Shown one piece after another: positions 30,690-34,080 of a stretch of DNA of 34,080 bases. The first letter of the stretch is position 1. Every line of letters starts with the position of its first letter. The position numbers and the translations under genes were made by a program. Source of the DNA: a virus; the IMG/VR virus record IMGVR_UViG_3300029787_000174, positions 1 through 34,080 of that record, one strand, 5' to 3'. The notes beneath the pieces are model-generated. The model was not told the DNA's origin. It searched no databases and saw only the letters and a list, made by a program, of their open reading frames with translations.

Positions 30690-31037
30690 ATGTTTGGTAT
30701 CTACGACAGTGACGGTTGGTCGGCCTACCTGGTCGCCACCGCACCAACTGAGTTCGCCGCTCAGTGCTTCATCAACCGGATGAAGGCTCATCCCAACAGT
30801 CGATTCTCGAGACTGTGTGATGTAGACAGCCTTTTCATCAAACCGGTGCGTCACCTGGTTGACCTGGGTGACCACGAGGATCTTGTTCAGTCTCTCATCC
30901 CTGATTGGGCTGGAGACGACCAACGTGAGTTCGAGCGCCAAGAAGCTTGCCGCGAGATCGACCGCACCGTGAAACAAGCGCGTGCACAGAAACAACCCTT
31001 GTCTAACCAGGGTTTCGACTGGTGGCCTGCCAGCTAA
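30690..31037 (+). CDS. Small unknown protein (115 aa)
   Basis: GGAGG four to five bases before ATG. The protein (MFGIYDSDGWSAYLVATAPTE, then FAAQCFINRMKAHPNS...LFIKPVRHLVDLGDHEDLVQSLIPDW) looks like a compact alpha/beta domain with a charged C-terminal helix (about 80-103). The stop is followed by the repeat-rich 400-base region. No family recognised. Confidence 0.72.
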   Translation: MFGIYDSDGWSAYLVATAPTEFAAQCFINRMKAHPNSRFSRLCDVDSLFIKPVRHLVDLGDHEDLVQSLIPDWAGDDQREFERQEACREIDRTVKQARAQKQPLSNQGFDWWPAS

Positions 31038-31041
31038 TCAG

Positions 31042-31382
31042 GCTCTCGTTACACTCTGTAACACAACGTAACACACTCAGTGTTACGGCATATTCAAGGT
31101 TCTTCTTACCTTACTACAGAGTGTAACACTGTAACACTGTTTATCGACTATACACTTACGTGACGAGAGCGACAATGGGTTTTGAGCAAACGAACTAACG
31201 CTAACCCACTCCCTCTCTCCGTATGTATGTCCTATCAACAATATCCGTGTTACAGTGTTACACTTCGTGATACCGCAGGTTCTTCCTACCGTATCGCGTA
31301 ACACACAACCTGTTACACTGTGTAACGCCAATCCGAACACTGACAGCGAAAAGCCAGGTTCGACGGTGAGACACAGCGTAAC
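31042..31382. repeat. Cluster of twelve GTAAC/GTTAC elements with 17-base inverted repeat
   Basis: GTAAC or its complement begins at 31048, 31058, 31068, 31082, 31123, 31131, 31249, 31257, 31298, 31312, 31322 and 31378, mostly within TGTAACAC contexts, some spaced exactly ten or eight bases. GTGTAACACTGTAACAC (31121-31137) is perfectly inverted at 31247-31263. A second repeat, GGTTCTTC(T/C)TACC, occurs at 31098 and 31278. The region holds no gene. It could be an iteron-like origin or an operator array for the gene starting at 31440. Confidence 0.72.
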
Positions 31383-31439
31383 ACCCGGCTGTTGGCGGAA
31401 ACCAACAAATACTTCAACCCGACCAAGGAGGTCAACATC

Positions 31440-31925
31440 ATGCTCTTTCAACTTCAAACCCAAAGCCAAGCCAGCACCGCCGAGCAACTCGGCAAACTCG
31501 CGGACCAACTGTGTGCGCACATCATGTCTGCAACCAACGACGTACTCGACAACGAGGACAAGCACAGCGAAGACGTCGTCAACCATGCCTGGGTTGCGCA
31601 AGACGACTGCAAACAACTTCGACGTGCAGTCAACCAGGTCAACCAACTCGTACAGTTCTTGCTCGAGAAACAAGAGGCTGGTGAGTACAACTACGACGTT
31701 CCGCAACGGTTCGAAGTTCCCATCAAATACTTGGAAGCAATCACGATCATGATTGACAAGTGTGCGTTGATTGACAACGACGAAGCTTTCATGATCGCCG
31801 ATGAGTTGACCACGTATCACCAAGCACTTCGCTGGTACTACCAACCCAACGATCCACGGTACGCACACCAAGCGATCGGTGCAAAACTCCAACGCTTTGC
31901 AGAACGCATCCTACTGCAAGCATGA
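31440..31925 (+). CDS. Helical unknown protein downstream of repeat cluster (161 aa)
   Basis: Start at ATG 31440, since GGAGG lies nine bases before; an upstream in-frame start would include this site. The protein (MLFQLQTQSQASTAEQLGKL ...) is mostly helical with conserved-looking W/Y residues (NHAWVAQDDCKQLRRAVNQV, ALRWYYQPNDPRYAHQA). Placement directly after the GTAAC cluster makes it a candidate for control by that cluster, or for the factor acting on it, but no DNA-binding motif was recognised. Confidence 0.72.
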   Translation: MLFQLQTQSQASTAEQLGKLADQLCAHIMSATNDVLDNEDKHSEDVVNHAWVAQDDCKQLRRAVNQVNQLVQFLLEKQEAGEYNYDVPQRFEVPIKYLEAITIMIDKCALIDNDEAFMIADELTTYHQALRWYYQPNDPRYAHQAIGAKLQRFAERILLQA

Positions 31926-32046: not shown

Positions 32047-32667
32047 ATGACTGTTCAAGATACTAACTCTTCCGCTAAGTTCGAGCGCTTCGTAGCCAAC
32101 GCGGTTCGCCCCGTTCGCCTACAACCTTCCGAGGTTGAGCACTTCCTCTTCGGTCGAGGTGTCATCCACGGTGTGGTTACCAAGGCCGACGGTCGCCAGG
32201 TCAACCAGATCATCGCTCGGTTCCTCGTCGATCCGGACAACAAACACGTAGCGCACATCCACTTCTTCACAGACAGTCTCAAGACTGCTCGGAAGATCGC
32301 CGCGATGCTTCGTCCATCCTGGCAACCATGGCGCAAGGACAACCCACGCCGTCGCAAGTCCACATTCTCCATCGGCAAAAAGGAGTCGTGGCACCAGGAG
32401 CCTTGCTTCTCAGCTACCTGGGGCGTCAAGCTCACCGCTGAAAAGCCTGTGACATCCAAAGTCACCGGGCCCTTCGGTACCTTCCACGAGACTCCAAAGA
32501 GCGAAGAGTCACCCTGGCTCTGGCTCAACGGAGCGAAGGTTCCAGTCGACAAGGTCAACGACCTGCTCGTCGACATCAACACACCCGAGCGCACACAGGA
32601 GCAAATCCTGCAGCAACTTGGGTGGCACGAACGCCAGGCTGCAATCGAGCTTGAGCGCCTTCGCTAA
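32047..32667 (+). CDS. Unknown basic protein (206 aa)
   Basis: ATG has CAGGAG about seven bases upstream. The protein has a mixed alpha/beta N-terminus (VEHFLFGRGVIHGVVTKADG, IIARFLVDP, VAHIHFFTDSLKTARKIAAML), a strongly basic middle (PWRKDNPRRRKSTFSIGKK, about 93-111), and a C-terminal helix-rich part (TQEQILQQLGWHERQAAIELE). The basic patch may contact nucleic acid. C-ending codons dominate. No family recognised. Confidence 0.75.
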   Translation: MTVQDTNSSAKFERFVANAVRPVRLQPSEVEHFLFGRGVIHGVVTKADGRQVNQIIARFLVDPDNKHVAHIHFFTDSLKTARKIAAMLRPSWQPWRKDNPRRRKSTFSIGKKESWHQEPCFSATWGVKLTAEKPVTSKVTGPFGTFHETPKSEESPWLWLNGAKVPVDKVNDLLVDINTPERTQEQILQQLGWHERQAAIELERLR

Positions 32668-33736: not shown

Positions 33737-34080
33737 ATGAACCTCGTAGTCATCAGCGGAAACCTCGGAGCCGCACCCGAAACCCGAGCCACAGGCAACG
33801 GCCTCACCGTCGCCAACCTAAGCGTAGCAACAAACGAACGCGTAAAGCAACAAGGCGAATGGACCGACCATACCGAGTGGCACCGAGTCACAGTCTTCGG
33901 CAAGCAAGCCGAGGTATGCCAACAGTTCCTTGCAAAAGGTTCCAAGGTCACCATCCAGGGCAAGCTTCGCACACGCAAGTTCACCGACAAGCAGGGCCAG
34001 GAGCGGTGGTCAACAGAGATCCTCGCTGACAGCGTAGAGTTTGGAAGTCGCGCCAACTCCAACCAACCTCCCGCACCGTC
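33737..34080 (+). CDS. ssb: Single-stranded DNA-binding protein, cut by window edge
   Basis: The visible 114 residues hold an OB-fold of bacterial SSB type: MNLVVISGNLGAAPETR, VANLSVATNER, TEWHRVTVFGKQAEVCQQFLAKGS (about 46-69), VTIQGKLRTRKFTDKQGQE, and TEILADSVEFG, after which a flexible tail (SRANSNQPPAP) begins. AAAGGAG precedes ATG by about six bases. It coats single-stranded DNA during replication. The missing C-terminal tip, usually acidic, cannot be seen. It marks the start of a replication module beyond the window. Confidence 0.92.
   Translation, partial: MNLVVISGNLGAAPETRATGNGLTVANLSVATNERVKQQGEWTDHTEWHRVTVFGKQAEVCQQFLAKGSKVTIQGKLRTRKFTDKQGQERWSTEILADSVEFGSRANSNQPPAP

Follow-up and report, generated by a model that had tools for sequence, protein, structure and literature searches.

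A probable iteron-type replication origin with two near-mirror arms in a family of uncultured tailed phages

The window analysed here is the whole of a 34,080-base virus contig, a 34-kb fragment from a record classed as linear (which often means a fragment). It carries genes for a capsid protein, a portal protein and the small and large terminase subunits, with an SSB gene at its right edge. The capsid protein has a single match among annotated phages, and that a distant one (25% identity). Near the right end, an ORF of 115 aa (30690–31037) is followed by a gap with the following setting.

31038–31439: gene-free gap of 402 bp with the proposed origin inside, flanked by ORFs 30690–31037 and 31440–31925
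31425–31431, + strand: ribosome-binding site AAGGAGG, serving the first rightward gene (read from the sequence)
31440–31925, + strand: first gene right of the array, 161 aa; nothing above the cut-off in the family search
33737–34078, + strand: SSB gene (PF00436, 1.8e-33), running off the record end

The mechanical ORFs across the gap 31038–31439 have no family match and are not kept as genes in the relatives, and the region described as gene-free in a preliminary description of this DNA does indeed lack a credible gene. That description had also placed the repeats ahead of SSB, as is the case (the SSB gene starts at 33737), and in several relatives the SSB gene likewise lies about 2.5 kb right of the array. 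A ACCAGGAGGTCAACATG-like leader in the relatives is the counterpart of the AAGGAGG ribosome-binding site.

The gap contains 12 GTAAC/GTTAC cores within 335 bp, between 31048 and 31382.

31048–31052, − strand: iteron 1 core; GTTAC or GTAAC in relatives
31058–31062, + strand: iteron 2 core; core scan and alignment of relatives
31068–31072, + strand: iteron 3 core; mirror partner 31312
31082–31086, − strand: iteron 4 core; mirror partner 31298
31123–31127, + strand: iteron 5 core; mirror partner 31257; inside the left inverted-repeat arm
31131–31135, + strand: iteron 6 core; mirror partner 31249; inside the left inverted-repeat arm
31249–31253, − strand: iteron 7 core; inside the right inverted-repeat arm
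31257–31261, − strand: iteron 8 core; inside the right inverted-repeat arm
31298–31302, + strand: iteron 9 core; core scan and alignment of relatives
31312–31316, − strand: iteron 10 core; core scan and alignment of relatives
31322–31326, + strand: iteron 11 core; GTTAC replaces GTAAC in two relatives
31378–31382, + strand: iteron 12 core; core scan and alignment of relatives

When the record was dinucleotide-shuffled 2000 times, no 335-bp window had more than six GTAAC cores, against the 12 of the real sequence, so the earlier judgement that twelve copies are too organised for chance holds. Among all 5-mers in the real record, only GTAAC and AAAAA reach 12 in any 335-bp window.

With their orientations, the sites make up two near-mirror arms on either side of a centre of about 110 bp, and this arrangement is kept once per array-bearing relative. 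The main regularity of the array is not the ten-base phasing alone that had been stressed in the preliminary description: about position 31192 the whole is nearly mirror-symmetric, and 8 of the 12 sites take part in this (p = 0.002 versus random positions). Several further elements accompany the cores.

31097–31110, + strand: left AGGTT box (AGGTTCTTCTTACC); AGGTT invariant in the eight-member alignment
31120–31137, + strand: left arm of a perfect inverted repeat, 18 bp; holds iterons 5 and 6
31138–31246: central spacer of about 110 bp, the proposed melting site; AT 0.56 versus 0.50 for the record
31176–31181 and 31203–31208: central inverted repeat TGGGTT/AACCCA, its centre on the symmetry axis 31192
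31247–31264, − strand: right arm of the perfect inverted repeat, 18 bp; holds iterons 7 and 8
31277–31290, + strand: right AGGTT box (AGGTTCTTCCTACC); repeat search, alignment and box counts
31355–31361, + strand: outer AGGTT box (CAGGTTC); alignment and box counts

The perfect inverted repeat first described as 17 bases long is in fact 18 bp, its arms being 100% complementary, and the two-copy repeat 180 bp apart was recovered as GGTTCTTCTTACC at 31098–31110 and GGTTCTTCCTACC at 31278–31290. A second conserved motif, AGGTT(C/G), is seen between the iteron groups in most relatives (31097, 31277 and 31356 in the window); a fourth AGGTT match, at 31307, overlaps the right arm. The mirror symmetry recurs with p values from <0.0005 to 0.0055 in the close group of relatives, in G010 and G011 and in L200, a contig like Thermoanaerobacterium phage THSA-485A; the test on exact GTAAC cores was not significant in G007, G008, G021 and THSA-485A. 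The AT content of the array centre is above the genome mean in all 13 of the relatives measured, mostly by a modest margin.

An RNA element was considered and rejected: the region has no Rfam match, and the central repeat shows one or few both-side changes and fades with divergence. Among eight members the TGGGTT/AACCCA helix is paired in 91.7% of cells, with both-side change in one pair only; the repeat is weak or absent among diverged relatives, and G007 and G008 do not keep both inner arms paired. Because both-side changes are few, the central repeat fades and G007 and G008 have lost full inner-arm pairing, DNA sites explain the array better than RNA structure does.

The two genes to the right of the array, used as queries, led to no close relatives, and therefore the capsid protein and the 17-mer of the inverted repeat were used instead. 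The capsid protein search of viral contigs gave 99 relatives, of which 80 were kept; the exact scan for the 17-mer GTGTAACACTGTAACAC gave 23 contigs, six of them with the inverted pair at the same 126–127-bp offset. At the DNA level, seven of the 30 records searched gave a strong match to the array region and others a weak one; the same kind of search of the annotated phage collection gave 0 matches. The densest cluster has 12–14 GTAAC cores in G001–G006 and G026, and in the close group these 12–14 cores compare with four to six in the next densest window. Further relatives have 12 (G010), 11 (G007), nine (G008), 13 (G011) and 10 (G021) cores per array, the GC-rich relatives G009 and G012 have six in a similar layout, and G023 has GGTAC-type repeats in place of GTAAC. 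No array was seen in G014, G015 and several other contigs, most of which are fragments.

The cores are the conserved part of the array. In an alignment of eight close members (the window included), 58 of the 60 core columns are invariant, versus 74 of 275 elsewhere (Fisher 2e-25), and so repeated short sites exceed chance in this non-coding DNA by core conservation as well as by the shuffles. Most of the longer relatives have a single such array per genome. The preliminary description had named two findings that would count against it, the same density elsewhere in the genome and loss of the repeats in close relatives; no second dense array was seen in any genome scanned, and the repeats persist in spite of changing neighbours, the gene content next to the array turning over between genomes of close relatives. 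The flanking bases are common to the cores of one genome and different between genomes, the context being GTAACAC in the window's group and GTAACC in G007 and G008. Such flanking bases of their own, and the switch to GGTAC in G023, are what one would see if every array tracked the protein of its own phage, although shared descent also plays a part. Other words form dense clusters in GC-rich relatives (G012, 32500–32620; G013, about 39520; G022, 33820–33920), among them at least 12 tandem GGTCCG and nine GTCCGG, near the fam6 gene or an early gene.

The window is a fragment that ends before the helicase region, and a DUF927 helicase with a C-terminal DNA-binding domain is seen in the relatives. 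The helicase of the long ones (for example G002) is about 712 aa long and combines DUF927 with HTH_56, the "Cch helix turn helix domain", at its C-terminus; all 12 relatives searched have HTH_56. The nearest solved structures are SaPIbov1 Rep (8tch, 4.9e-31) and then SCCmec Cch (5dgk, 1.1e-16). A model of the C-terminal 212 residues (pLDDT 69, a modest confidence) has a strand-helix-helix-strand-strand pattern; structurally it comes closest to 8tch, 5dgk and then oriT-bound TcpK (5vfx). The global fit to 8tch is poor, so the model speaks for a winged helix but for nothing beyond that. Every one of the 11 relatives measured has its array on the 3' side of the helicase gene, a direction that requires a circular map in three of them (G007, G008 and G009). 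The array is thus downstream of the helicase gene, at a distance of 2.6–12 kb and not directly behind it, direct placement being treated here as typical of SaPIs, not as defining. This phage family also has a family A DNA polymerase with an N-terminal uracil-DNA glycosylase domain (G002, L140:868-3618).

Arrays behind helicase genes are found in other phages as well. Twenty-four annotated phage records contain a distant relative of the helicase, and the gap behind the gene was read in six. Directly behind the DUF927 gene there are 12 GTAAC copies in THSA-485A, nine in Ruminococcus phage phiRg507T2_3 and six each in Anaerostipes phage AC844P2 and Roseburia phage Jekyll (the DUF927 helicases of these cultured phages are at 24–28% identity), and behind the helicase gene there are GGGAACT-type repeats in PT1028 and GGTGAAAC-type repeats in FP_Epona. 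THSA-like contigs have 10–12 (L200, L202 and L203) or 10 (L206) GTAAC cores behind the helicase, and among distant DUF927 loci no clear array was seen there in L197 and L207–L210. At DUF927 loci, the position behind the helicase is kept and the repeated word changes. The DUF927 genes of L204, L211, L213, L196 and L193 are followed by GGCGTAAG, CTAAC, GGTCACC or GGTGAAAC, not GTAAC. In unrelated contigs that share the 17-mer, the array is directly behind a Prim-Pol/D5 (L085) or VapE (L099 and L100) helicase gene.

In a sample of GTAAC triplets from viral contigs that was not picked by helicase, the match had seven or more cores nearby at 45 of 80 loci. Pfam searches of 52 ORFs beside 37 of the arrays, in which some ORFs may match more than one family, gave DUF5906 (five), DUF927 (three), VapE (three), Toprim/AAA_25 (two) and small terminase (six); the control of 37 ORFs at 22 sparse sites gave one DUF3631 and one Rep3 protein. 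This helicase-blind sample leans weakly to replication genes, and many arrays have no neighbouring helicase. GTAAC may be linked to the X-box of RFX winged helices; the one weak RFX match beside an array does not count as a test of this. We suggest, tentatively and as a possibility that the odds do not favour, that GTAAC is a widely shared recognition core for initiator helicases of the DUF927/HTH_56, VapE and Prim-Pol/D5 types, read through their C-terminal winged helices. If that were true, the origins of many uncultured phages could be found by sequence alone. Compact GTAAC arrays, with seven or eight cores in about 90 bp, are found in AT-rich phages (L082, L094, L104 and G025/G027, the last at L128:10133-10394 and L129:9291-9364) just upstream of a small-terminase-like gene, and are candidate origins, pac sites or operators.

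A master operator, at which a phage repressor or activator on the GTAAC sites would govern the early rightward and late leftward genes, is an unlikely explanation of the array. It would suit the setting of the array, which has a strong ribosome-binding site downstream of it and lies close to where leftward genes give way to rightward ones, and a 118-aa HTH protein of the relatives, fam33, has matches to transcriptional regulators. However, neither a second dense array nor a GTAACAC pair occurs elsewhere in the genomes checked, and hence no autoregulatory site was seen near fam33; in unrelated phages, arrays with this core follow replicative helicase genes and do not mark a shared promoter; and a dimeric repressor would not usually have asymmetric cores set out in two near-mirror arms. 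The fam33 gene (G002, L140:8671-9027) is conserved in long relatives and is the likeliest phage regulator, and its operators were not found.

A centromere-like partition site or a packaging (pac) site is very unlikely. The array does adjoin the small terminase gene in G010, G011 and G023, as the compact GTAAC arrays of one AT-rich phage clade do too, but the distance to that gene is at least 2–3 kb in the close group and about 11 kb in G003, and a packaging site is not favoured because this distance is not kept; for partition, the ten long relatives, whose contigs may be incomplete, gave no ParB_N (PF02195) match. A site-specific recombination site, whether an attP with arm sites or a telomere resolution site, at which the near mirror image would serve a recombinase, could draw on the large imperfect palindrome, its central inverted repeat and the flanking arm-type repeats, but is extremely improbable, with no tyrosine integrase or serine resolvase (PF00589, PF00239), and for telRL no protelomerase (PF16684), in the same ten relatives with their possibly incomplete contigs.

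The origin half of the "origin or master operator" first suggested is supported by a single array per genome in most relatives, by the conserved cores and by arrays of the same core behind the replicative helicase genes of other phages, and no positive evidence was obtained for the operator half. The array is very probably an iteron-type ori of an uncultured tailed phage. We propose that the C-terminal winged helix of the helicase would read the GTAAC iterons, with one hexamer per arm facing inward, and that the centre between the arms would melt; the helicases may then load themselves on the single strands, needing no separate loader, and would be joined by phage SSB and PolA, the start of replication being bidirectional or unidirectional. 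Against an origin, the array in the window's family is not adjacent to the helicase gene, unlike in SaPIs, the initiator gene is outside the window and the AT-richness of the centre is modest. Also on that side of the balance are the four genomes without significant exact-core symmetry, the distant DUF927 loci with no array behind the helicase and the modest quality of the C-terminal model. The GC skew has no inflection at the array either, so this check for a replication start, proposed in the preliminary description, lent no support. In short, this family of uncultured tailed phages has in the locus a concrete origin candidate, one that connects it with initiator helicases studied mainly in staphylococcal islands. 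The near-mirror arms fit a model in which two hexamers are loaded, and the results suggest a practical rule: seek short-repeat arrays 3' of DUF927, VapE or D5-type helicase genes.

The SaPI Rep protein is reported to recognise the iterons of its ori by the C-terminal domain, seemingly in the form of two hexamers, and the DUF927 protein Cch to be a relative of SaPIbov1 Rep (PMC7581432). Like the SaPI origin, the array here consists of multiple short iterons in a non-coding gap, and the helicase of the relatives resembles SaPIbov1 Rep as a DUF927-type self-loading helicase with a C-terminal DNA-binding domain. Unlike that origin, which is directly behind the helicase gene, the array is kilobases away from it, and it has GTAAC cores in a large tailed-phage genome; the SaPI-like element PT1028 has its repeats at the equivalent place. 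The relatives' helicase shares DUF927 and the HTH_56 "Cch" domain with SCCmec Cch and Cch2. Cch2 binds a downstream direct-repeat site through its C-terminal domain, and this site has three AAGTG iterons (PMC7581432), whereas there are twelve GTAAC sites in two near-mirror arms here. The closest layout is that of THSA-485A, in which a gap of similar length, unannotated in the record (L190:7582-7946), has twelve GTAAC cores arranged as an outer group, an inner pair, an AT-rich centre, an inner pair and an outer group; the array of THSA-485A, however, is immediately behind the helicase gene, and its cores stand in a GTAACCGA context. Classical iteron plasmid origins of the RepA/TrfA type also have short initiator sites in arrays next to a region that melts, but there the initiator recruits a host helicase, whereas here the proposed initiator is the helicase itself and the arms are near mirror images. 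What seems to be new in this phage family is a putative iteron origin of the SaPI Rep/Cch type that lies far from its initiator gene and is built as a near mirror image.
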